Shown: in pieces, positions 48,509 to 61,909 of the stretch
Position numbering within the stretch: the stretch's first letter is position 1
Layout of the letters: every line of letters begins with the position of its first letter
Source of the DNA: Curvibacter sp. PAE-UM
Lineage (GTDB): Bacteria > Pseudomonadota > Gammaproteobacteria > Burkholderiales > Burkholderiaceae_C
Assembly (NCBI RefSeq): GCF_001432305.1
Contig: NZ_KQ483358.1
Location: 1,310,881-1,374,880 of the forward strand
Direction of reading: 5' to 3'
DNA: 64,000 bases
Position numbers and translations under genes: made by a program
The notes under the pieces: generated by a model
What the model was told of the DNA's origin: nothing
Seen by the model: only the letters and a program-made list of their open reading frames with translations
Databases searched by the model: none

Positions 48509-48664
48509 ATGAACGAGACACACGACGAGAACGAACGCGTTCCCCTGATGCAGCAGCTGCTGGACAACCCGTTCCTGCTGCTGTTCCTTGGCGTCATGGT
48601 TCCGATGGTGGTCTACACCTTGTGGGGTGTGATTGACATTCTGACCGTGCCGCTTGCCAAGTAA
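48509..48664 (+). CDS. Small single-helix membrane protein (51 residues)
   Basis: It begins MNETHDENERVPLMQQLLDN and ends in one transmembrane helix followed by TVPLAK. AAAGGG precedes the ATG. Small one-helix subunits or assembly proteins often accompany heme-copper enzymes. It is the first gene of the second cluster and has no counterpart in the aa3 operon by sequence. The function is unknown. Confidence 0.75.
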   Translation: MNETHDENERVPLMQQLLDNPFLLLFLGVMVPMVVYTLWGVIDILTVPLAK

Positions 48665-48722: not shown

Positions 48723-49262
48723 ATGAGCGCTATCCTGCCCCCGGCAGAGCGACTGTGGTGGAAGCATCCACTCGATCGCGTTGAAGGAACCTGGATTGTC
48801 ATTGCACTGATCTGGTGTCTCATCATGTTTGCCATGATGGTGGGATGGCACATCTGGGGCAAACAGAACCTGTCCACTGAGACCTACAAAACCACGCCGG
48901 ATCTGTTCATGCAGAAAACCCAGGCGGTGGTCGACAAGTACACGGTTCGCACGGAGACTGCAGACAAGATCCCGGTCGTTGCACCGCCTCCCGGCAGCGA
49001 CGTCTACCTGATCGCCCGGCTCTGGAGCTTCTGGCCCATCATTGAGCTCGAGAAGGACAAGACCTACCGTCTGCACCTGACCTCGCTGGACTACAACCAC
49101 GGCTTTTCACTGCAACCGGCCAACATCAACATCCAGGTGGTGCCCGGTTATGAGCACGTCGTGACCGTGACGCCCAACCAGTCCGGGACCTACTCCGTCG
49201 TCTGCAATGAGTACTGCGGCATCGGCCATCACCAGATGGTCGGGCGCATCTATGTGAAATAG
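48723..49262 (+). CDS. CuA-containing subunit II of an sNOR-type heme-copper enzyme (NorS-like)
   Basis: This 179-residue protein has one N-terminal transmembrane helix (TWIVIALIWCLIMFAMMVGW) and a cupredoxin domain. The CuA site is complete: a histidine in LDYNHGFSL and CNEYCGIGHHQM supply the two cysteines, glutamate, histidine and methionine. It is much shorter than coxB, has only one membrane helix and has no fused cytochrome c. CuA subunits take electrons from soluble cytochrome c. It is 12 bases before its catalytic subunit. The order subunit II, subunit I, SCO matches the norSY-senC arrangement described in ammonia-oxidising bacteria (recalled, not checked). Confidence 0.88.
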   Translation: MSAILPPAERLWWKHPLDRVEGTWIVIALIWCLIMFAMMVGWHIWGKQNLSTETYKTTPDLFMQKTQAVVDKYTVRTETADKIPVVAPPPGSDVYLIARLWSFWPIIELEKDKTYRLHLTSLDYNHGFSLQPANINIQVVPGYEHVVTVTPNQSGTYSVVCNEYCGIGHHQMVGRIYVK

Positions 49263-49274
49263 AGGAGCCATAAC

Positions 49275-50975
49275 ATGTCCAACGCAACGACGTATCGCAC
49301 CTGCCCGCGCTCCGGTCTGCAGTTCGAGGCGCAAGCCGAAAAACTGATGATTGCCAATGCCTTTATCGCCGTCGTCTTCCTGCTGATCGGCGGCATCTTG
49401 GCCATTGGCGTGGTGCTCACCCGCTGGCCGGCCGTGCACTGGCTGGAGGCCGACACCTTCTACCAGGTCCTCACCGCCCACGGCATCGACATGCTGATCT
49501 TCTGGATCATCTTCTTCGAAGTGGCGGTCCTGTATTTCTGCTCATCCACGCTCTTGCGCTGTCGGATCGCTACACCCCGATGGGCCTGGGCGGCGTTTGT
49601 GCTCATGCTGGTGGGTGCGATCATGAACAACGTGGCCGTGTTCCAGGGCGGCTCCAGCGTCATGATGACGTCCTATGTACCGATGATGGCGGCCCCGTCC
49701 TTCTACCTGGGCCTGATCCTGTTCGCGGTGGGCGCCCTGATTGCCTGCTTCGTGTTCCTGGGCACCCTGGTGATCGCCAAGCGCGAGAAGACCTACCAGG
49801 GCTCGGTGCCTCTGGTCACCTTCGGCGCCATCACGGCCTGCATCATCGCTGTGTTCACCATCACCTCCGGTGCCATCATCCTGATCCCGACCTTCCTGAT
49901 GTCGGTGGGGCTGATCAGCAACGTCGATCCCCTGGTCTACCGGACCATCTGGTGGGCCTTCGGCCACTCCTCGCAGCAGATCAACGTGGCGGCACACATC
50001 TCCATCTGGTATGCGGTGGCGGCCATTGCCTTCGGCGCCAAGCCCATGTCGGAGCGGGTGAGCCGCGGTGCCTTCCTGCTTTACATCCTTTTCCTCCAGC
50101 TGGCCAGTGCGCACCACCTGTTGGCCGACCCCGGCGTCAGCACGGCCTGGAAAGTGGTCAACACCAGCTACTTCATGTACTTCGCGGTGCTGGCCTCCAT
50201 GATCCACGGCCTGACGATCCCCGGTGCCATCGAGGTCGCGCAGCGCGAGAAGGGTTACAACAAGGGCCTGTTCGAGTGGTTGCGCAAGGCACCCTGGGGC
50301 AATCCGGTGTTCTCGGGGGTGTTCATCTCCTTGATCGGCTTCGGCTTCCTCGGTGGCATCTCGGGCGTGATGATGGGCACCGAGCAGCTCAACATGATCA
50401 TCCACAACACCATCTACGTGCCGGGACACTTCCACGCCACGGTGGTGGTGGGTACGACGCTGTCCTTCATGGCCCTGACCTATTTCCTGATCCCCGTGCT
50501 GTTCAGGCGCGAGATGATCAACCCGGGCCTGGCCAAACTGCAGCCCTATCTGTTCGGCCTGTCCATGTACTTCTTCTGCCTGGTGATGATGGGCGCGGGT
50601 ACCCTGGGCGTGTCGCGCCGTCACTGGGACATGGCCTTCCAGGGCGCCGCACTGGCCTATGAGTGGCCGGGGGCTGCCTACCTGATGATGGGCCTGGTCG
50701 GCATTGCCGGTGTGGCTGCCATCGTCGGCGGGGCTCTCTACATCTACATCACGGTGGGTTCCCTGCTGTGGGGCAAGCGGCTGGATTCGGGACGGCAAAG
50801 CGCCCAGACCACGCCCGTGCCTCCCACGCCGGTGGGCAAGGTGGTGCAGACCTACGGCTCGGCCGGCTTCGCCGCACCCGGCACCTTCGTGCTGGCCATG
50901 GTGTTCCTGGTGGCCTTCGTGCTGTACTACTTCATCAACTGGAAGTACCTCTCGCAGGTCTGGGGTTTGAGCTGA
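49275..50975 (+). CDS. Heme-copper subunit I lacking the active-site tyrosine, sNOR-type nitric oxide reductase (NorY-like)
   Basis: This 566-residue integral membrane protein has about 12-13 helices. All six metal-binding histidines are in place: H69 in TAHGIDMLIF, H231 in FGHSSQQINV, H280/H281 in SAHHLLADP, and H385/H387 in PGHFHATVVVG. The position four residues after H231, which is the cross-linked tyrosine of O2 reductases (Y259 in this genome's coxA), is Q235. Loss of that tyrosine is the hallmark of nitric oxide reductases in this superfamily. The CuA subunit upstream distinguishes it from cytochrome c and quinol NORs, and no norD or norQ is present. The most likely activity is 2 NO to N2O at the membrane with electrons from cytochrome c. 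Confidence 0.82.
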   Translation: MSNATTYRTCPRSGLQFEAQAEKLMIANAFIAVVFLLIGGILAIGVVLTRWPAVHWLEADTFYQVLTAHGIDMLIFWIIFFEVAVLYFCSSTLLRCRIATPRWAWAAFVLMLVGAIMNNVAVFQGGSSVMMTSYVPMMAAPSFYLGLILFAVGALIACFVFLGTLVIAKREKTYQGSVPLVTFGAITACIIAVFTITSGAIILIPTFLMSVGLISNVDPLVYRTIWWAFGHSSQQINVAAHISIWYAVAAIAFGAKPMSERVSRGAFLLYILFLQLASAHHLLADPGVSTAWKVVNTSYFMYFAVLASMIHGLTIPGAIEVAQREKGYNKGLFEWLRKAPWGNPVFSGVFISLIGFGFLGGISGVMMGTEQLNMIIHNTIYVPGHFHATVVVGTTLSFMALTYFLIPVLFRREMINPGLAKLQPYLFGLSMYFFCLVMMGAGTLGVSRRHWDMAFQGAALAYEWPGAAYLMMGLVGIAGVAAIVGGALYIYITVGSLLWGKRLDSGRQSAQTTPVPPTPVGKVVQTYGSAGFAAPGTFVLAMVFLVAFVLYYFINWKYLSQVWGLS

Positions 50976-50985
50976 GGAGCTTGCC

Positions 50986-51882
50986 ATGGGCACCGCTGCT
51001 GCAACGATCCATCCCTCAGCTTCCAGCCGCGTGCGGCTGGTGCTGGGTGTCTTCAAGCTGCGTATCGGAGTGATGATCATGATCACCGCGCTGGCGGGCC
51101 TGGCCGTCACGCCGGGTCCGTCGCTCAGCGCCGTCCAGTGGCTGGTGCTGGCGTTCTCCGTGCTGCTGTCCTCGGCCAGTGCCGGCGCCTTCAACCAGTA
51201 CTACGAGTACGAAAGCGACCGGCGCATGGCGCGCACGCGCAACCGCGCCTTCGCCACCGGCGCCTTGCAGCCCACGCCGGCCTGGCTGGGGGTGATCGGC
51301 GCCTTGCTGGCCGGCTCGGTCGTGGCGACGTGGACCGTGGTCAACGGCGTCTCGGCGCTGTTCGTGTTCCTGGGTGCCTTCTTCTATGCCGTGGTCTACA
51401 CGGTCTGGCTCAAGCGGCGCAGCTGGCTCAACATCGTGATCGGCGGCCTGGCCGGCAGCTTTGCCGTGCTTGCGGGGGCCGCCGCGGTGGACCCGTCCAT
51501 CGGGCCGCTGGGCCTGCTGCTGGCGCTGGTGCTCTTCCTGTGGACGCCGCCGCACTTCTGGAGCCTGGCCATCGCCAATCAGAAGGACTATGCGGACGCC
51601 GGCGTGCCGATGCTGCCGGTCGTGGTCGGGCCCGAGCGCGCGGCCCGTGTGGTGTTTGCCAGCACGGTGCTCCTGGTGGTGGCCTCGCTGCTGCCGGCCT
51701 GGTTTGGTGCGGGTCCGGTCTACCTGGCCGGGGCCGTGGTCGGCGGCGCTTTTTTCATCGTCAAGGCCCGGCGCTTGGCCAGCCATCCGAGCCGCGCCAC
51801 GGCCATGGGCTCGTTCTTCGGTTCGCTGGTCCAGCTGGGTTTGCTGCTCCTGGCAGCGGGGATCGATGGTCTGATCAGGTAG
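50986..51882 (+). CDS. Protoheme IX farnesyltransferase (heme O synthase), second copy
   Basis: This 298-residue UbiA-family enzyme contains NQYYEYESDRRMARTRNR, the prenyl-diphosphate-binding motif, and [20 protein letters not shown]. It is clearly diverged from ctaB at 45802. It lies 10 bases after the NOR-type subunit I and 9 bases before a SCO gene, so the cluster supplies its own heme maturation. Its presence suggests that the enzyme uses heme O or heme A rather than only heme B. Confidence 0.92.
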   Translation: MGTAAATIHPSASSRVRLVLGVFKLRIGVMIMITALAGLAVTPGPSLSAVQWLVLAFSVLLSSASAGAFNQYYEYESDRRMARTRNRAFATGALQPTPAWLGVIGALLAGSVVATWTVVNGVSALFVFLGAFFYAVVYTVWLKRRSWLNIVIGGLAGSFAVLAGAAAVDPSIGPLGLLLALVLFLWTPPHFWSLAIANQKDYADAGVPMLPVVVGPERAARVVFASTVLLVVASLLPAWFGAGPVYLAGAVVGGAFFIVKARRLASHPSRATAMGSFFGSLVQLGLLLLAAGIDGLIR

Positions 51883-51891
51883 GGGGCGAGC

Positions 51892-52722
51892 ATGCGGGTG
51901 CTGTCTACCGTGCGCGCGGGTCTGCTGCTGACGTTCATAGTCGGCACGCTGGGGATGCCCGCGGCGGCGGCGTCCACGCCGGCCGAAAGCGTGCTGGACC
52001 GCGCCGAGGCCATCCGCATCAGCCAGGCCGTCATCGGCCAGCAGCCGGCCAACTTCACCTTGCTGGACCGGCGCGGCAAGCCGGTGCGCCTGAGCGACTA
52101 CCGGGGCAAGCCCCTGCTGGTGAGCTTCATCTATACCGGCTGCTTCCAGGTCTGTCCCACCACGACCCGCATGCTGCACGAGGCGGTCCAGGACCTGGGC
52201 CGGCTGGTCGGTTTTGACAAGTTCAATGTTGTGAGCATCGGCTTCAACCAGCCCTTCGATGCACCCGAGGCCATGCGCGCTTTTGCGACGCAGAACGGCA
52301 TCGCTGCCTCGAACTGGGAGTTTCTCAGCCCGCACCGTTCCATCGTCGAGCCGCTGACGCGCGACTTCGGCTTCAGCTACGTGGCCAATGCGGCCGGCTT
52401 CGACCATGTTCTCTCGGTCACGCTGCTCGACGGGGAAGGGCGGATCTACAGCCAGATCTACGGCGACAGCCTGACGCCCAACCAGCTGGGCGAACCCATG
52501 CGCGAGCTCATGCGCGGCGCGCCCCTGCCGCCCACGCTGAACCTGGACGACCTGATCGAGCGGGTCAAGATCCTGTGCACCGTCTACGACCCCAAGACCG
52601 GCCAGTACCGCTACGACTATGGCCTGTTCATGGAACTCGCCGGCGGAACGATGTTCTTCCTCTTCATGTTCGGGTACCTGGGGCGTGAATGGCTGCAGCA
52701 GCGGCGCAGCAGGCGACTATGA
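51892..52722 (+). CDS. SCO1/SenC-family copper chaperone with C-terminal membrane anchor
   Basis: This 276-residue protein has a signal peptide or N-terminal helix, a thioredoxin fold with the copper motif YTGCFQVCPTT (C-x3-C-P) and a histidine ligand in GFDHVLSVT. Unlike the lipoprotein SCO at 46706 it ends in a transmembrane helix (LAGGTMFFLFMFGYLG). It should metallate the CuA site of the subunit II at 48723. Its stop overlaps the next start (ATGA). Confidence 0.9.
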   Translation: MRVLSTVRAGLLLTFIVGTLGMPAAAASTPAESVLDRAEAIRISQAVIGQQPANFTLLDRRGKPVRLSDYRGKPLLVSFIYTGCFQVCPTTTRMLHEAVQDLGRLVGFDKFNVVSIGFNQPFDAPEAMRAFATQNGIAASNWEFLSPHRSIVEPLTRDFGFSYVANAAGFDHVLSVTLLDGEGRIYSQIYGDSLTPNQLGEPMRELMRGAPLPPTLNLDDLIERVKILCTVYDPKTGQYRYDYGLFMELAGGTMFFLFMFGYLGREWLQQRRSRRL

Positions 52723-54263
52723 CTGCCGCAGTCGTCTCCGATGGCTACGGCCGTCGCACGTTTCAGCGCCTGGAGCACTGGTTCGACCGCCCCCTGGGCG
52801 CCGATCTCAATCCCTTGCGTCACCTGGGCTCGCTGGGCTTCCTGTTCTTCTGGCTGATCGCCGCCAGCGGCATCTACCTCTATGCCGTGCTGGACACCTC
52901 GGCCACCGGGGCCTACCCGTCCATCGACCAGCTCTCGCGCGAGCAGTGGTACCTGGGCGGGGTGCTGCGCAGCCTGCACCGATATGCCTGCGACGGCTTC
53001 ATCCTCGTGATGGTGGCGCACCTGTTGCGCGAGTGGATGTTCGGTCGCTACGGCGGCTTCCGGCGCTACTCCTGGCTGACGGGTGTGCCACTGCTGCCTT
53101 TTGTCTTTGCCTGCGCCATCGGTGGCTTCTGGCTGAACTGGGATGCGCTGGGGCAGTTCTCGGCCCAGGCCACGGCCGAATGGCTGGACGGCCTGCCGGT
53201 CTTCGCCTCGCCGCTGACGCGCAACTTCCTCAGCGCCGCCACGGTGAGCGACCGCCTGTTCTCGCTTTTCGTCTTCATCCACCTGGGCCTGCCCCTGCTG
53301 CTGCTATTTGCGCTCTGGTTCCACATCCAGCGCATCAGCCTGGCCGAAGTGTTCCCGCCGCGCGCGCTGGCCTGGGGCACGGTCGCCACCCTGCTGGTGC
53401 TGTCGCTACTCAAGCCGGTGCTCAGCCATGCGCCGGCCGACCTTGCGATGGCACCGACGCAGCTCGCGCTGGACTGGATCGTGCTCTTCGTGCATCCGCT
53501 GATGTACCTCACCTCGGCCGGCTTCGTCTGGGGTCTGGTCGCCGCGCTGCTGCTGCTGCTGACGCTGCTGCCCTGGCTGTTACGCCAGGCGCGTGCACCC
53601 GTGGCCGTTGTCGCGCCGGATTACTGCAACGGCTGCCGACGCTGCCTGGCCGACTGCCCCTATGCCGCCATCACCATGGCGCCGCACCCCCTGCGCCATC
53701 AGGCCGGGCGTGAGATCGCGGTGGTCGACGCCGACCTGTGCGCCGCCTGCGGCATCTGCGTCGGTTCCTGCCCTTCCTCCACCCCGTTTCGCAGCATCGC
53801 GGAATTGACGACCGGCATCGACCTGCCCCAGTCGCCCATCAGCGAGCTGCGCCGACAACTCCACAGCGGCCTGGCGGCTCTGCAGACACCGCACAAACTC
53901 GTGGTGTTCGGCTGCGACCACGGGGCCGACGTCCAGGCGCTGCGGGCCCCCGGCGTGCTGGCCTTCAGCATGGTCTGCACCGGCGTGCTGCCGCCTTCTT
54001 TCGTGGAGTACGCACTGCGCGATGGCGCCACGGGGGTGCTGGTGACGGGCTGCCACGCCGGCAGCTGCGAATTCAGGCTAGGGCAGTTATGGACCGCAGA
54101 GCGACTCCAGGGTTTGCGTGAACCGCATCTGCGCGCTTCCGTGCCACGGGAGTGCATCGCCACCACCTGGGCCGACCGGGGCGAAGAAGTCCTGCTGGCG
54201 CAGGCCCTGGACACACTGCGACAACAACCCACCCGGCCCGATGAGCCCGCACCACTACGCTGA
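52719..54263 (+). CDS. Fusion: di-heme cytochrome b, two [4Fe-4S] clusters, MvhD-like domain
   Basis: This 514-residue protein joins three redox modules. Residues 1-290 form a cytochrome b/b6-type membrane domain with histidine pairs H87/H101 and H188/H202, the 13-residue spacing of bis-heme cytochrome b. Residues 303-351 carry two [4Fe-4S] motifs (C303, 306, 309, 313 and C341, 344, 347, 351). Residues 393-500 resemble the small iron-sulfur subunit MvhD/FrhD of hydrogenase-heterodisulfide reductase complexes: KLVVFGCDHGAD, VCTGVLPPSFVEYAL and TGCHAGSCEFRLG. MvhD passes electrons into heterodisulfide reductase, so this protein could link the quinone pool to an iron-sulfur partner. I know no characterised protein of this architecture. 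Confidence 0.82.
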   Translation: MTAAVVSDGYGRRTFQRLEHWFDRPLGADLNPLRHLGSLGFLFFWLIAASGIYLYAVLDTSATGAYPSIDQLSREQWYLGGVLRSLHRYACDGFILVMVAHLLREWMFGRYGGFRRYSWLTGVPLLPFVFACAIGGFWLNWDALGQFSAQATAEWLDGLPVFASPLTRNFLSAATVSDRLFSLFVFIHLGLPLLLLFALWFHIQRISLAEVFPPRALAWGTVATLLVLSLLKPVLSHAPADLAMAPTQLALDWIVLFVHPLMYLTSAGFVWGLVAALLLLLTLLPWLLRQARAPVAVVAPDYCNGCRRCLADCPYAAITMAPHPLRHQAGREIAVVDADLCAACGICVGSCPSSTPFRSIAELTTGIDLPQSPISELRRQLHSGLAALQTPHKLVVFGCDHGADVQALRAPGVLAFSMVCTGVLPPSFVEYALRDGATGVLVTGCHAGSCEFRLGQLWTAERLQGLREPHLRASVPRECIATTWADRGEEVLLAQALDTLRQQPTRPDEPAPLR

Positions 54264-54273
54264 GCCGATCCAC

Positions 54274-54795
54274 ATGGACACCGACAAGACAACGCTGAAC
54301 CTCGGTCGACTGCTGGTACAAGCCATCTTCTTCGGGCTGTTCGGCCTGGTGATCGGGGTCTTTTCCCATTGGCCCGTCTACCAGGTCCTGGCGCCCGGGC
54401 GCGCCGTCGTCAAGTTGAGCTTCACCCACCATGGCAAACCGGTGTCCGAGTGCCGGCAGGTCAGCGTGGCCGAGCTGGCCAAGCTGCCGCCCAATATGCG
54501 GGCGCCGGTGCAGTGCCCGCGCGAGCGTTCACCCGTCAGGGTGGAGGTCGATGTGGACGGGCAGACGGTGTACCAGCACGTGGCCAGACCTTCGGGTCTG
54601 TCCAAGGACGGCGCCTCGTCGGTGTACCAGCGCATCGAACTGGCCGCCGGCCCGCATGAGATCGCCGTGCGCATGAACGACGACGCACGCCAGACGGGCT
54701 ACACCCACACGCGTACCGGTTCCGTCGCACTCAGGCCGGCGCAGATACTGGTCATCGATTTTGATCCCGAGGCCGGGGGAGTCACCTTCAAATGA
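54274..54795 (+). CDS. Membrane-anchored periplasmic protein of unknown function
   Basis: This 173-residue protein has one N-terminal transmembrane helix (LVQAIFFGLFGLVIGVF) followed by a periplasmic beta-rich domain. Two cysteines (SECRQVS and APVQCPRE) are 29 residues apart and could form a disulfide. I do not recognise the family. The topology is like FixH-type accessory proteins of oxidases. An in-frame ATG at 54241 is possible. It overlaps the next gene by 4 bases and lies 10 bases after the cytochrome b-MvhD fusion, so all are co-translated. Confidence 0.65.
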   Translation: MDTDKTTLNLGRLLVQAIFFGLFGLVIGVFSHWPVYQVLAPGRAVVKLSFTHHGKPVSECRQVSVAELAKLPPNMRAPVQCPRERSPVRVEVDVDGQTVYQHVARPSGLSKDGASSVYQRIELAAGPHEIAVRMNDDARQTGYTHTRTGSVALRPAQILVIDFDPEAGGVTFK

Positions 54796-56237
54796 ACACG
54801 ACCACACAAGACAGCGTGCATCGCAAGCCGGCCATCGCCACGCCGGCAACGGTCAGGGGTTTCGATTACGTCCTGCCGGTCCCCACCGATGAACGCCAGC
54901 GCCTGGCCCGGGGCTGGCTGTGGCTGGGCCTGCTGGCCCTGATCGGCTCGGGGGTGTTCTCCATCCTGCTGGTCCTGGCGCGCACCCCCGGCGTGAACCG
55001 CCTGCTGCCGGGCGTCGATTTCTTCCGCATCGCGCTGGTCGTGCACGTCGATCTCTCGGTCCTCGTCTGGTTCGTGGCAGTGGCCGGCCTGCTGTGGAGC
55101 ATCAATGGCGCACGCGCGGGCCTGCGCTGGGGCTGGGGCGCCCTGGCGCTGGCCGGTGCCGGCACCACCTTGATGAGCCTGGCGGCCTTCATCGCGCCGG
55201 GTGTAGCCATCATGGCCAACTACATCCCCATGCTCGACAGCCCGCTGTTCATCACCGGCACGCTGGTGCTGGGCTCGGGCGTGCTGCTGCTGGTGCTGCG
55301 CGCCATGCTGGGCGCGCCCAAGGTCGGGCTGCAGATCGACGGCGCCGGCGCCTTGCACTTCGGCATCAACGCCGCCGCGGTCGCCACCGCCGTGGCCCTG
55401 ATGGCCTTCGTGTGGTCTTACGTCGTGCTGCCGCAGGACCTGGTGGGCAAGGCGTATTACGAGATCCTGTTCTGGGGCGGCGGCCACGCCCTGCAGTTCA
55501 CCTGGACCTTGCTGATGCTGGTCGGCTGGCTGTGGCTCGCCAGCATCTGCGGCGCCCGTCTGCCCATCTCGCCCCGGCTCACGGTGCTGATGTTCGTGCT
55601 GGCACTGGCCAGCGTCTTCGTCACGCCCTACGCCTACCTGGCCCATGACGTGGCCACCGTCGAGCATCGCAACCTGCACACCTGGGCCATGCGCCTGGGC
55701 GGCGGCATCGCCATCGCACCGATCGCGCTGGCCGTCATCACGGGTCTGTGGTCCGCCCGCGGGGGCGACGCCAGCACCCGGCCGTTGCGGGCTGCGCTCG
55801 TCAGTTCAATGGCGCTGTTCGCCGCCGGCGGCTTGATCGGCGCCATGATCAACGGCAGCAACGTCAAGATTCCGGCGCACTACCACGGCTGCATCGTCGG
55901 CGTGACGCTGGCCTTCATGGGCCTGGTCTACCACCTGCTGCCGCGGCTGGGCTACGGCGCGGTGCGCGGCCGGATGGCGACGCTGCAGCCTTATCTCTAC
56001 GGCGCCGGGCAATTGCTGCACATCATCGGCCTGGTCTGGTCCGGTGGGTATGGCGTGCAGCGCAAGGTGGCCGGCAGCGAGCAGGTGCTGCGCAGCACGG
56101 CCGAGGTCTTCGGCATGGGGCTCATGGGGCTGGGGGGGCTGGTGGCCATCATCGGCGGCCTGCTGTTCGTGCTCGTGGTCATCCGGGCCATGCGGCAGCC
56201 GGCCGGGGCCACCGGTAGCGGGACGGTCACGCCATGA
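54792..56237 (+). CDS. Highly divergent heme-copper oxidase/NOR-type subunit I
   Basis: This 481-residue protein has about 12 membrane helices in the layout of cbb3-like or NOR-like subunit I. Candidate ligands are H85 in VVHVDLSVLVWF (low-spin heme), H232 in WGGGHALQFTW (CuB) and H363/H365 in PAHYHGCIVG (both hemes). The usual adjacent histidine pair of helix VII is absent. The equivalent region reads LAHDVATVEHRNLH, with H285-D286. The position four residues after H232 is F236, so no tyrosine is available there. O2 reduction of the normal kind is therefore unlikely. NO reductase, an unusual metal site or a structural role are possible. Confidence 0.75.
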   Translation: MNTTTQDSVHRKPAIATPATVRGFDYVLPVPTDERQRLARGWLWLGLLALIGSGVFSILLVLARTPGVNRLLPGVDFFRIALVVHVDLSVLVWFVAVAGLLWSINGARAGLRWGWGALALAGAGTTLMSLAAFIAPGVAIMANYIPMLDSPLFITGTLVLGSGVLLLVLRAMLGAPKVGLQIDGAGALHFGINAAAVATAVALMAFVWSYVVLPQDLVGKAYYEILFWGGGHALQFTWTLLMLVGWLWLASICGARLPISPRLTVLMFVLALASVFVTPYAYLAHDVATVEHRNLHTWAMRLGGGIAIAPIALAVITGLWSARGGDASTRPLRAALVSSMALFAAGGLIGAMINGSNVKIPAHYHGCIVGVTLAFMGLVYHLLPRLGYGAVRGRMATLQPYLYGAGQLLHIIGLVWSGGYGVQRKVAGSEQVLRSTAEVFGMGLMGLGGLVAIIGGLLFVLVVIRAMRQPAGATGSGTVTP

Positions 56238-58126
56238 TCCGTCTGCTCCAGGCTGCGCTGCAATGGCTGTTTCTGCGGCTGGAGGCGCTGTTCAATGCGG
56301 CCTTCGGCGTGGCGCTCAATCCGCTCTACCACCTCGGGGCCATCAGCTTCTTCCTGTTCTGGGTCATCGCCGCCACCGGCCTCTACCTCTACGCCTTCTT
56401 CGAGACCGGCGTGGCCGGTGCCTACGCCTCGGTCGAGTCCATCACGCACGGGCAGTGGTACCTTGGAGGCATCCTGCGCAGCACGCACCGTTACGCTTCC
56501 GACGCCTTCGTGGTGACTATGCTGCTGCACATGGTGCGCTACTTCGCGTTCAACCGTTACCGCAGCTTTCGCTGGTTCTCCTGGGTGACCGGGGTGGCGC
56601 TGATCTGGCTGGTCTATGTCTCGGGCATCAATGGTTACATGCTGCCCTGGGACAAGCTGGCGCAGTTTGTCATCGTGGCCACCTTCGAGTGGCTGGACTG
56701 GCTGCCCAGCTTCGGCGGCACCCTGATGCGCAACTTCATCTACCCCAGCAGCGTCAACGACCGCTTCTTCTCGCTGCTGGCCTTCATGCACATCGGCATA
56801 CCGCTGCTGGTGCTGCTGCTGATGTGGATCCACGTGCAGCGCGTGCCCAAGGCCGCCACGACGCCGCCGCGACCCATGGTCATCGGCATCCTGCTGACCC
56901 TGCTGGTGATGTCACTGATCGTCCCGGTGCTCAGCCAGGGCGGTGCGACGGATCTGAGTGTTGCCGTGACGACGCTGAAGCTGGACTGGTTCTACCTGCC
57001 GCTGTTTCCCCTGCTGAACGAGCAGAACCTGGGCTGGATCTGGGGCGGGGTGCTGGGCTTCACGGGCTTGATCACGGTGCTGCCCTGGCTGCCACCGTGG
57101 CGCCAGCGCAAGGCGGTGGGCGAATTCCACCTGACGATTGCCGGCGAGCCCAAGGTGGTCAATGTGCGCGCCGGCGAAACCCTGCTGGACGCCGGCCTGC
57201 GCGACGGCCTGTCACTGCCCTATGAGTGCCGCAACGGCGGCTGTGGCGTGTGCCTGTGCACGGTGGTGCACGGCAGTGTCGACCACGGCCTGTACCAGCG
57301 CGCGGCGCTGAGCGACGAGATGCGCGACCAGGGCAAGACCCTGATGTGCTGCGCCACGCCCTTGTCCGATCTGGAAATTGAAGTGGAGCAGATCGCGGCC
57401 CGTTCGGTGAGCGAAGCGCGTGAGTACCTGGGACGCGTGGAAACGATCGAGCGGCTCAGCCCGCAGGTGATCCTGCTGCGCCTGTCCTTGCCCGCGGGCG
57501 AGTCCATCGCCTTCACGGCGGGCCAGTACATCAACTTCGTGCTGGACGACGGCCAGCGCCGCGCGTTCTCGTTTGCCAATCCGCCGCAGACGCAGGCCTT
57601 GATCGAGCTGCATGTGCGGCTGATTCCCGGTGGCCGTTTCACGAGCCATGTGTTTCATGCGCTCAAGGTCGGCGACAGCCTGCGCTTCGAAGGACCCCAC
57701 GGCCACTTCGTGCTGCAACCCGGCACCGCACCCATCATTTTCGTGGCGGGGGCCACGGGTTTCGCGCCCATCAAGAGCATCGTCGAGGATGCGTTCCTGC
57801 GCGGCATTGAGCGCCCGATGTGGCTGTACTGGGGCGTGCGCGAGCCGGCGGATCTGTACATGAAGGAACTGGCCGAGGCCTGGCAGCGCGCGCATCCGGA
57901 CTTCCATTTCGTGCCGGTGCTGTCCGAGGCCTCACCGGGGGATGCCTGGTCCGGCCGGCGCGGCCTGGTGCACGAGGCCATCCTGCAGGATTTCCCCGAT
58001 CTGGCCGGCCATGAGGTCTATGTCTGCGGCTCGGCCAGGATGGTCGAATCAGCGATCCCGGCTTTCCTCGCCCAGGGGCTGAGCGACGACGCCTGTTTCT
58101 CGGACGCCTTCCTGCCCGCGCGCTGA
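56234..58126 (+). CDS. Fusion: di-heme cytochrome b, [2Fe-2S] ferredoxin, FAD/NAD(P) reductase
   Basis: Residues 1-290 of this 630-residue protein form a cytochrome b domain with heme histidines H85/H99 and H186/H200. They are homologous to the start of the 52719 protein. Residues 295-385 are a plant-type ferredoxin with C332, C337, C340 and C372 (YECRNGGCGVCLC). Residues 400-630 are a ferredoxin-NADP reductase-like module: RRAFSFANPP for FAD, then FVAGATGFAPIKSI and VYVCGSARMV for NAD(P). It should exchange electrons between quinol and NAD(P)H. A similar cytochrome b/b6-flavin fusion was proposed for Accumulibacter (recalled). Its ATG overlaps the preceding stop. Confidence 0.85.
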   Translation: MIRLLQAALQWLFLRLEALFNAAFGVALNPLYHLGAISFFLFWVIAATGLYLYAFFETGVAGAYASVESITHGQWYLGGILRSTHRYASDAFVVTMLLHMVRYFAFNRYRSFRWFSWVTGVALIWLVYVSGINGYMLPWDKLAQFVIVATFEWLDWLPSFGGTLMRNFIYPSSVNDRFFSLLAFMHIGIPLLVLLLMWIHVQRVPKAATTPPRPMVIGILLTLLVMSLIVPVLSQGGATDLSVAVTTLKLDWFYLPLFPLLNEQNLGWIWGGVLGFTGLITVLPWLPPWRQRKAVGEFHLTIAGEPKVVNVRAGETLLDAGLRDGLSLPYECRNGGCGVCLCTVVHGSVDHGLYQRAALSDEMRDQGKTLMCCATPLSDLEIEVEQIAARSVSEAREYLGRVETIERLSPQVILLRLSLPAGESIAFTAGQYINFVLDDGQRRAFSFANPPQTQALIELHVRLIPGGRFTSHVFHALKVGDSLRFEGPHGHFVLQPGTAPIIFVAGATGFAPIKSIVEDAFLRGIERPMWLYWGVREPADLYMKELAEAWQRAHPDFHFVPVLSEASPGDAWSGRRGLVHEAILQDFPDLAGHEVYVCGSARMVESAIPAFLAQGLSDDACFSDAFLPAR

Positions 58127-58138
58127 ATCAGGCCCCAT

Positions 58139-59509
58139 CTACTTCTGCAGTGCGTCCGGCGCGGGCCCGTCCAGTGCAAACACGACCTCGACCTGCGCCA
58201 GCGCCACACGCCGCAGTTCACGCAGCGTGCGGGTGTCCAGCAGGCGGATTTCTGTTTGCGTGGCCAGCACCGCCTGCCGCCCGCCCGCCGCGAAGCTGAC
58301 CGGCAGCCAGCGCCGGTCGGGCTCGCGCAGCGTCGCGATGACCCGCCAGTCGTCCTTGTCCACCAGCACCAGCGTATCCGACGGCGTGGCCTCGGTGGCG
58401 TGCAACCAGAGCTGTGGGGTGGCCGGGTGGCTGCGCACGGCGTCAACCCCGCGCAGCGCCACCAGGGTTTCGGGGTGCAGCGTCCAGCCCCTGGTCTCGA
58501 TCAGCACGACCCGGCCTTCGGGACCGGTGGGCAAGGCCAGCCAGGGCCGGGTGCCCGAGGTGAAGACCACGCCGGCCCCGGCCATTGGATATCCCGTCAG
58601 CGTGCGGGTGGTGATGCGCCGGCGTATGTCCAGGTTGATGATCTCCAGCTCCGTGCCGGAACGCGCATCCTGTCCTGGCGGACCCGGCGCCGCGATGGCC
58701 AGCAGGTGGCGCAGGGGGGCATCGGTCAGTACCACGCGCAAAGGCTGTGACAGTGGGGTACGACGCACACCTAGAAAGCCTGCCGTGGCGATGGCCTCGC
58801 CCATGCGGTAGTCATGCACCAGCCCGTCATGGATCGGCTCGGCCGCAGGGTCGTAGGACAGTTCCCACAGTTCGGGCAGCGTGTCGAAAGCCACCACGAA
58901 GCTCCTGCGCGCCTGTGCAAGCCAGACGCCCGAGACCGCGGAATCGGCGCCGCCCGTGAGGGCCGAGGTCCGGTAGCTGCGCACGACGTTCAGCTGGGCG
59001 TCCAGCAACACCAGGCTGTGGGGCTGCGCGTGGCCGGCCAGCAGCCAGCGCCCGTCGGCCGACAGGACCAGGCCGCTCAAGGCCAGGCCGGTGCGTGTAC
59101 CGAGCGCCTGGCCGAAATGTTGCAGGTCCAGCCGCAGCACCCAGCCGCCGGCTGCGGCGGCATAGACGTAACGCCCCTGCGGGGACCGCACCGGCGTGCC
59201 TTCCAGCGCGTGCGGCAGCTGGCAGCGCCCCAGGACGGCAAGTGTGCTGCCATCCAGCAGCAGCAACTCGCGTCCGGCGTCTCGCACGGCCAGGACCAGG
59301 TCGGTCGTGGCCAGGCCGGTTGTGCGGTTGTCGCTGGCCGTACAAGCCGGTACCTCCAGGCGCGGGGGTTGCTTATCGGTTTCGCGCCCTGCGTCCTGGG
59401 CGCTGGTGCCCCAAGGCGACAACAGCAGGACGAAAAACAAAAATGGGGCCCACCGCAGGGGGCCCCATCGTCGTTCTGCAAGGTGGCGGCAGTCCGCCGG
59501 ATCGGTCAC
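58139..59509 (-). CDS. NirF-like cytochrome d1-domain beta-propeller protein
   Basis: This 456-residue exported protein has a hydrophobic leader (WAPFLFFVLLLSPWGTSA). A beta-propeller of the cytochrome d1 heme-domain type follows, with repeated blades such as LLLLDGSTLAVLGRC, VLSADGRWLLAGHAQ and LVLVDKDDWRVIATL. It has no heme c site, which separates it from NirN and NirS and favours NirF, a periplasmic factor for d1 heme synthesis. The sequence is divergent and longer than typical NirF. The start is GTG, overlapping the nirM stop. The stop is 12 bases from the stop of the convergent cluster. Confidence 0.6.
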   Translation of the reverse strand: MTDPADCRHLAERRWGPLRWAPFLFFVLLLSPWGTSAQDAGRETDKQPPRLEVPACTASDNRTTGLATTDLVLAVRDAGRELLLLDGSTLAVLGRCQLPHALEGTPVRSPQGRYVYAAAAGGWVLRLDLQHFGQALGTRTGLALSGLVLSADGRWLLAGHAQPHSLVLLDAQLNVVRSYRTSALTGGADSAVSGVWLAQARRSFVVAFDTLPELWELSYDPAAEPIHDGLVHDYRMGEAIATAGFLGVRRTPLSQPLRVVLTDAPLRHLLAIAAPGPPGQDARSGTELEIINLDIRRRITTRTLTGYPMAGAGVVFTSGTRPWLALPTGPEGRVVLIETRGWTLHPETLVALRGVDAVRSHPATPQLWLHATEATPSDTLVLVDKDDWRVIATLREPDRRWLPVSFAAGGRQAVLATQTEIRLLDTRTLRELRRVALAQVEVVFALDGPAPDALQK

Positions 59510-59811
59510 GACTTCAGGATGAACGCGATCGCTGCCGTCAGGTCAGCGTCGTTGATCTTGTCGGGGCCATTCGGTGCCATGGGGATGGGGCCAAAGTTTC
59601 CGGAGCCGCCCTTGCGGACCTTCTCCATCAGCTTGGTCGTGACGTCCTGGCCCTTGTACTTGGCGGCGATGTCCTTGAAGGACGGGCCGATCATTTTCTT
59701 GTCCTTGGCATGGCAGGCCATGCAGCCCGCCTTGTTCATGGCTTCTTCGGGGGGAGCCGCCTGCGCGCTGAAAGCAAGCGCGAGAGCCGGCAGGATAAAG
59801 AGGCATTTCAT
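59506..59811 (-). CDS. nirM: Cytochrome c551/c8-type electron donor (NirM-like)
   Basis: This 101-residue protein is a small soluble periplasmic class I cytochrome c. It has the signal peptide MKCLFILPALALAFSAQAA, the heme site C30-M-A-C33-H34 and the methionine ligand M78 in GPIPMAPN. The pattern GCMACHAKDKKMIGPSFKDIA is very close to Pseudomonas cytochrome c551, the donor to nitrite reductase NirS. It lies directly downstream of nirS and overlaps the NirF-like gene. Confidence 0.88.
   Translation of the reverse strand: MKCLFILPALALAFSAQAAPPEEAMNKAGCMACHAKDKKMIGPSFKDIAAKYKGQDVTTKLMEKVRKGGSGNFGPIPMAPNGPDKINDADLTAAIAFILKS

Positions 59812-59886: not shown

Positions 59887-61909
<2,023 letters not shown>

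Follow-up and report, generated by a model that had tools for sequence, protein, structure and literature searches.

A 64,000-nucleotide stretch of the Curvibacter sp. PAE-UM genome (contig NZ_KQ483358.1; the whole stretch is referred to here as the window) encodes a membrane cytochrome b that is fused, in one chain, to two [4Fe-4S] sites and an FlpD domain, iron–sulfur parts akin to those of methanogens. The gene is part of an operon with an eNOR-type nitric oxide (NO) reductase, and the two genes occur together almost strictly across the sampled Pseudomonadota. Its role is probably in supplying electrons to, or in assembling, an overlooked route to nitrous oxide (N2O). As the best explanation, held tentatively and at somewhat under an even chance, it would be the cytosol-facing electron-entry (or electron-exchange) subunit of a module around the Pseudomonadota form of eNOR.

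Architecture of the cytochrome b–FlpD chain

52719..54263, plus strand: cytochrome b–2×[4Fe-4S]–FlpD fusion, 514 residues (PF00033, Fer4, PF02662; ligands invariant in 56/56)

All 514 codons of the frame are open. The longest open reading frame (ORF) begins 30 bases upstream, at 52689, and the ATG of the gene overlaps the stop codon of the upstream Sco gene. Pfam places Cytochrome_B (PF00033) at residues 29–204 (E = 3.6e-17), Fer4 models of a ferredoxin-type dicluster within residues 295–354, and FlpD (PF02662) at residues 411–500 (E = 3.3e-12; 46.9 bits, over the membership cut-off of 22.3). The open frame and these matches bear out an earlier note on this DNA, made from the letters alone, which had described a single 514-residue chain of cytochrome b, two [4Fe-4S] sites and an MvhD-like domain.

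The heme-ligating histidines form the pairs H87/H101 and H188/H202, each with the 13 intervening residues that the note had recognized, and all four align with histidines in the bc1 cytochrome b of the same genome. The eight ferredoxin-type cysteines, also counted there, are residues 303, 306, 309 and 313 and residues 341, 344, 347 and 351; those of the FlpD part are 399, 420, 445 and 450. Each of the 56 distinct full-length fusion sequences, the window included, keeps the four histidines, eight ferredoxin cysteines and four FlpD-part cysteines without exception. A frame or assembly artefact, a possibility raised in the note, is therefore excluded.

The tail matches five solved subunit D sequences of F420-non-reducing hydrogenases (E = 7.7e-11 to 2.7e-6), in agreement with an MvhD-like C terminus. 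In FlpD and MvhD this cysteine set carries a [2Fe-2S] cluster. C420, C445 and C450, three of the four cysteines that the note gave for the MvhD-like C terminus, align with cysteines of the solved chains; as C399 falls before the start of the FlpD match, we infer rather than align its equivalence to an MvhD cysteine. An AlphaFold model of moderate confidence (mean predicted local distance difference test score of 71.7) was used for helix limits and fold only. The 50 Foldseek matches listed for this model are of the bc1/b6 type, with no MvhD chain among them, so the claim of MvhD homology rests on sequence.

Across the 56 sequences, loops B–C and D–E and the segment behind helix F contain 1.9–3.0 lysine and arginine residues per 10 residues, and the other loops 0.3–0.4; by the positive-inside rule, this distribution supports a cytosolic location of the Fe–S/FlpD tail. 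The fusion matched no Pfam family for the C-terminal (Qo) part of cytochrome b, no Rieske match was found among the 10 window proteins scanned, and the CcoG/FixG family is absent from the 17 Pfam matches of the fusion at E ≤ 0.1.

Residues 293–502 of the fusion are collinear with the C terminus of HdrA2 (positions 569–766 of 777), with a score of 75.6 bits against an HdrA2 cut-off of 1100 bits. The earlier note had suggested that the chain could exchange electrons between quinone and a low-potential carrier. In this reading a quinol-oxidizing cytochrome b would send electrons to a low-potential cytosolic carrier, with the membrane potential, or bifurcation involving a high-potential acceptor, as the driving force. 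In favour of this direction, MvhD domains take part, in archaea and acetogens, in low-potential chemistry linked to HdrA. It is also favoured by the role of MvhD as assumed membrane linker of the Hdr/MetVF complex in Sporomusa (available portion of PMC9430772), and by an unusual Accumulibacter cytochrome b/b6 inferred to let succinate be oxidized anaerobically (cited in the available portion of PMC9041414). However, the genome of the window shows 13 partial HdrA2 matches, all below the cut-off and each covering at most about 200 of 777 positions, and one FlpD gene, with no second found. MvhD/HdrA-type bifurcation, and with it the flavin-based bifurcation context given in the note, is unsupported because no HdrA2 match exceeds the cut-off. 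The lack of a Qo family match in the fusion and of a Rieske match in the scanned proteins also stands against quinol-driven reduction of a carrier, and no link is seen between production of such a carrier and an NO reductase. We regard this direction of flow as improbable.

Co-occurrence with an eNOR-type NO reductase

eNOR is defined by a glutamine replacing the active-site tyrosine of the oxidases, has been reported in Proteobacteria, and its genes are frequently mislabelled as cytochrome c oxidases (available portion of PMC8756737); it has also been reported in Gallionellaceae (available portion of PMC10734462). In the window, the heme-copper oxidase (HCO) subunit I at 49275–50975 (HCO1) has Gln235 where the oxidase tyrosine is expected and keeps the six heme/CuB histidines, as do all 42 distinct sequences compared; subunit II likewise shows a complete CuA motif in 42/42. 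By this signature HCO1 is an eNOR-type NO reductase, with predicted NO reductase activity. The genome has four HCO genes by PF00115, namely CtaD, eNOR, a second HCO-fold protein of the window, HCO2, and a fourth that looks cbb3-like by eye; eNOR is therefore the sole heme-copper NO-reductase candidate seen beside the nitrite reductase NirS. The note had placed NO and nitrite reductases near the fusion; both NirS and an NO-reductase-type gene are indeed close by, and the near-strict co-occurrence described below makes the link to NO reduction firmer than was noted.

Two Thermus thermophilus plasmids (L131 and L133, both sequences checked) carry eNOR-type genes that have the glutamine signature and in which lysine replaces the last heme histidine (HFK); the eNOR-type gene of TTHNAR1 lies near a gene annotated as nitrite reductase. 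NAR1 is reported to be without NO reductase (norCBH) in the available portion of PMC7694296.

Relatives were sought, by profile or tblastn, in 398 phylum genomes (Pseudomonadota), 299 family genomes and 72,556 plasmid records. The fusion profile was applied at E ≤ 1e-60, with the best three (phylum) or best five (family) candidates per genome scored, and eNOR at E ≤ 1e-120 in the phylum sample. Of 18 loci from a degenerate-pattern scan of genome contigs, 17 encode the fusion, incompletely in L011 and L017, and the remaining one gives only a weak match over a short length. The fusion is present in 34 and eNOR in 30 of the 398 phylum-sample genomes: 29 hold both, one holds eNOR alone, five the fusion alone and 363 neither, such that the genes are found together in 29 of the 35 genomes holding either. 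In the family sample, the identical 35 of 299 genomes carry both. The contig of the lone eNOR genome (G069) stops 34 bases behind sco, where the fusion gene would begin, and in three fusion-only genomes (G121, G227 and G278) the contigs are cut at or before the expected place of eNOR.

Fisher values for this co-occurrence ignore relatedness and are not probabilities. A chance or one-lineage effect was rejected, since the gene sets agree across genomes that carry ten family labels. Mirror-tree comparison of 42 loci, which lacks a control and carries little weight, gave correlations of r = 0.76 for eNOR/FlpD and r = 0.89 for FlpD and the FixH-like protein described below. Neither fusion nor eNOR is seen in the four other members listed for the genus of the window; the cluster is therefore patchy and may be mobile.

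Among 59 collected loci with the fusion, which are not a random draw, eNOR is present in 44 and eNOR or NirS in 52. The fusion and its FixH-like neighbour form a pair separated from eNOR, with nirS within about 7 kb, in five long-contig genomes (G034, G045, G065, G073 and G085); sco stays with eNOR in 5/5 of these genomes and ctaB in 3/5. Four small f39 genomes (L078, L081, L082 and L084) have a tandem duplication of the cytochrome b–FlpD gene, and the two copies fall in separate clades in a tree with a wrong ORF as outgroup. At L067, L072, L073 and L077 a set of molybdopterin-oxidoreductase, NrfD-like and ferredoxin genes, recognized only by inspection of the translations, lies in the vicinity of the pair.

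One of the 72,556 plasmid records, from Defluviimonas sp. SAOS-178_SWC, carries the fusion, annotated as 'cytochrome b N-terminal domain-containing protein', in a cluster without HCO2 and without the cytochrome b paralogue described below; a hemerythrin gene follows the pair. Hemes and Fe–S clusters react with NO, and both this chemistry and the hemerythrin gene would suit an NO or redox sensor, or an NO-detoxifying side path, that accompanies eNOR outside its main electron path. Against such a role, no signalling output domain is present among the matches listed (Pfam, and the best 25 of 51 in a second scan), and the bis-histidine heme ligands and complete cluster ligands show strict conservation, as expected of electron transfer. 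We consider it very improbable.

Neighbouring genes, a possible maturation role and a paralogous cytochrome b

The other genes of the cluster are as follows.

48509..48664, plus strand: small single-transmembrane protein at the head of the cluster; position conserved
48723..49262, plus strand: cupredoxin subunit II with complete CuA motif (PF00116; H149, C184, C188, H192 and M195 in 42/42)
49275..50975, plus strand: eNOR-type heme-copper subunit I, HCO1 (PF00115; Gln235 and six heme/CuB histidines in 42/42)
50986..51882, plus strand: heme o synthase-like protein, CtaB/CyoE (synteny; the syntenic Defluviimonas gene is annotated cyoE)
51892..52722, plus strand: SCO family protein (PF02630)
54274..54795, plus strand: FixH-like single-transmembrane protein with periplasmic domain (size and position; cysteine pair 62/83)
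54792..56237, plus strand: HCO2, HCO-fold protein without the CuB His–His pair (PF00115, alignments)
56234..58126, plus strand: paralogous cytochrome b fused to [2Fe-2S], FAD and NAD domains (PF00033, PF00111, PF00970, PF00175)
58139..59509, minus strand: cytochrome d1-domain protein, NirF-like (PF02239, E = 6.7e-26)
59506..59811, minus strand: c-type cytochrome (PF00034)
59887..61722, minus strand: cytochrome cd1 nitrite reductase NirS (PF02239, E = 2.5e-150)

The plus-strand order is small transmembrane protein, subunit II, HCO1, heme o synthase, Sco, fusion, FixH-like protein, HCO2 and second cytochrome b fusion, and the genes for NirS, cytochrome c and the NirF-like protein face this cluster from the opposite strand. 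The ORF of subunit II is listed from 48654, and its start at 48723 was set by alignment. Three of these features went without mention in the earlier note: the fusion at 56234–58126, the lack of the CuB histidine pair in HCO2, and the eNOR signature of 49275–50975. An FNR/DNR-like box, TTGATGTTGGTCAA, is located at 61798–61811, upstream of nirS (0.34 chance matches expected in the window); no NsrR-type box was found in the window at ≤3 mismatches.

Of the 59 distinct loci, 57 have the FixH-like gene next to the fusion (51 counted by script and 6 added from coordinates), and in the other two (L011 and L084) the contigs end inside a fusion gene. The label reflects size and position only, the start was chosen by alignment, and no Pfam family was matched by the window protein. 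Each cysteine of the pair is present in 50 of 52 sequences. Both are absent from the f39 sequences L078 and L081, and this joint loss suggests that they form a disulfide.

CcoG (FixG) acts in the assembly of cbb3 oxidases. A CcoG-like maturation reductase would pass cytosolic electrons across the membrane during assembly of eNOR and its CuA subunit, with Cu(II), the cysteines of Sco or of the FixH-like protein, or heme as targets. The gene order fits such a role: the fusion start overlaps the Sco stop, the heme o synthase gene is close by, and the partner is a single-transmembrane protein with a periplasmic cysteine pair. The strict co-occurrence with one enzyme agrees with it, as do the absence of the fusion from Thermus plasmids (plasmid records only) and two broken-up assemblies (G121 and G145) in which sco or ctaB lies directly beside the pair. 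However, no CcoG/FixG or FixH family is among the Pfam matches, and in the five long-contig genomes sco stays with eNOR while the pair is near nirS; NirS holds no copper. The NAD(P)H-reductase paralogue and HCO2 would also be left unexplained. A maturation role, the main rival to electron entry, appears unlikely overall; it keeps an appreciable share of the probability because of the CuA site, the maturation genes in the cluster and the plasmid eNOR genes without fusion.

HCO2 keeps His85, His363 and His365 (heme) together with His232 (CuB) and Gln235 in 33/33 sequences, with no His–His pair at the CuB position. His292, kept in 28/33, sits where that pair has been lost, so the metal site may be an altered one, and HCO2 is not claimed to be certainly metal-free. 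The best Foldseek hits are ba3 and cbb3 oxidases, and the protein encoded in the window has no NCBIfam match at E ≤ 0.01. HCO2-like genes are present in 58 of the 398 phylum-sample genomes, comprising 29 of the 30 eNOR genomes and 29 genomes without eNOR. They are linked to eNOR yet not exclusive to it, and HCO2 was rejected as a strict eNOR marker because half of its genomes (29/58) show no eNOR. One HCO2 relative (L073) lies beside ATP-binding cassette (ABC) transporter genes.

The paralogue at 56234–58126 is 49% identical to residues 14–288 of the fusion. Of the 35 family genomes with the fusion, 34 have a match of its score class at E ≤ 1e-60, whereas no genome without the fusion does; in the phylum sample, this class occurs only in G000 and G366. 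In a tree rooted with the bc1 cytochrome b of the same genome, the NAD(P)H-type paralogues (31/31) form one clade with support of 1.0, and some of the FlpD-type sequences join this clade (supports of 0.91–0.97). As the deepest FlpD node has support of 0.25, it is not secure whether the FlpD type or the NAD(P)H type came first. The cytochrome b of the paralogue bears an NAD(P)H-reductase tail instead, which suggests that the cytosolic tail is an exchangeable electron-transfer unit on cytochrome b; this is the strongest indirect argument of the analysis.

Proposed electron entry to eNOR and comparison with known systems

The proposal that the fusion brings cytosolic electrons to the eNOR module is drawn from the invariant redox ligands, the cytosolic placement of the Fe–S/FlpD tail, the co-occurrence with eNOR and the swapped tail of the paralogue. 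It is further supported by the five long-contig genomes, in which the pair is near nirS and away from eNOR, and by HCO2, given the heme histidines kept in all of its sequences and its presence in nearly all eNOR genomes. In such a module, a reduced cytosolic carrier (ferredoxin or a reduced flavoprotein) would dock on FlpD, and electrons would pass from the FlpD [2Fe-2S] cluster through the two [4Fe-4S] clusters to heme bH and heme bL. From heme bL they would reach the quinone pool, or a membrane or periplasmic partner feeding eNOR. Candidates for this partner are the FixH-like protein and also HCO2 in many lineages. In the window's family the paralogue would play the same part for NAD(P)H. 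NO from NirS would then be reduced to N2O by eNOR.

Several points weigh against this proposal. Cytochrome c could feed eNOR directly, without the fusion, because subunit II has a CuA site. The maturation genes ctaB and sco lie beside the fusion, and no FlpD partner emerged from the analysis. The fusion occurs without eNOR in five phylum-sample genomes, and contig breaks can explain three of these but not G137 and G145; conversely, HCO2-like genes are also found in 29 genomes of that sample without eNOR. Of the 12 plasmid records with eNOR (E ≤ 1e-100), one, that of Defluviimonas, carries the fusion. Thermus and Thermomicrobium plasmids have eNOR-type genes without it (their chromosomes were not searched).

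A more elaborate arrangement, which we consider decidedly unlikely, is a membrane hub of paired cytochrome b subunits with exchangeable inputs (FlpD/ferredoxin and NAD(P)H–FAD), which would deliver low-potential electrons to eNOR and bypass complex III. The two cytochromes b could form a heterodimer resembling the halves of a bc complex, joined by the FixH-like subunit, with HCO2 acting as a heme wire.

If the link between fusion and eNOR holds, the fusion would mark those Pseudomonadota that produce N2O by eNOR and would be a new meeting place of cytosolic reducing power and NO respiration; how eNOR is fed, and whether energy is conserved, would become testable. N2O is a greenhouse gas. The organism would be a predicted source of it, because the fusion accompanies NirS and the NosZ model TIGR04246 has no match above its cut-off in the genome. 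The sole hit of this model falls in the CuA domain of subunit II; the search did not extend to the TAT-type model.

The components of the fusion have clear counterparts. The subunits D of F420-non-reducing hydrogenases (MvhD/VhuD/FlpD) share the homologous domain with aligned C420, C445 and C450, whereas here a membrane cytochrome b is added and the genome lacks an HdrA2 match over the cut-off. The C terminus of HdrA2 has the same ferredoxin-plus-FlpD tail in collinear order, with the HdrA core replaced by cytochrome b in the fusion. Cytochrome b6 and the bc1 cytochrome b share the di-heme domain and its four histidines; the fusion differs in its Fe–S/FlpD tail and in having no Qo family match. 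CcoG/FixG and CcoH/FixH of the cbb3 oxidase likewise comprise a two-[4Fe-4S] membrane protein beside a single-transmembrane periplasmic protein in an HCO cluster. The fusion, in contrast, lacks a match to the CcoG/FixG family and has the di-heme cytochrome b and FlpD as extra parts.

The Accumulibacter cytochrome b/b6 of Garcia Martin 2006 reportedly carries fused domains. It may resemble the sister gene at 56234–58126, and was proposed to function in anaerobic succinate oxidation rather than with NO (available portion of PMC9041414). HCO1 has the defining glutamine of eNOR, and the Chloroflexi neighbourhood of eNOR, as described in the available portion of PMC8756737, mentions no such fusion. 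No description of a cytochrome b–FlpD fusion was found among the literature matches listed or in the available portions of PMC8756737, PMC6446978, PMC12569097, PMC9041414, PMC10734462, PMC7694296 and PMC9430772; an earlier mention in Murali et al. 2024 (PNAS) or Garcia Martin 2006 is possible. The single domains are known from these systems, and their combination in one chain, together with the link to eNOR, looks new.

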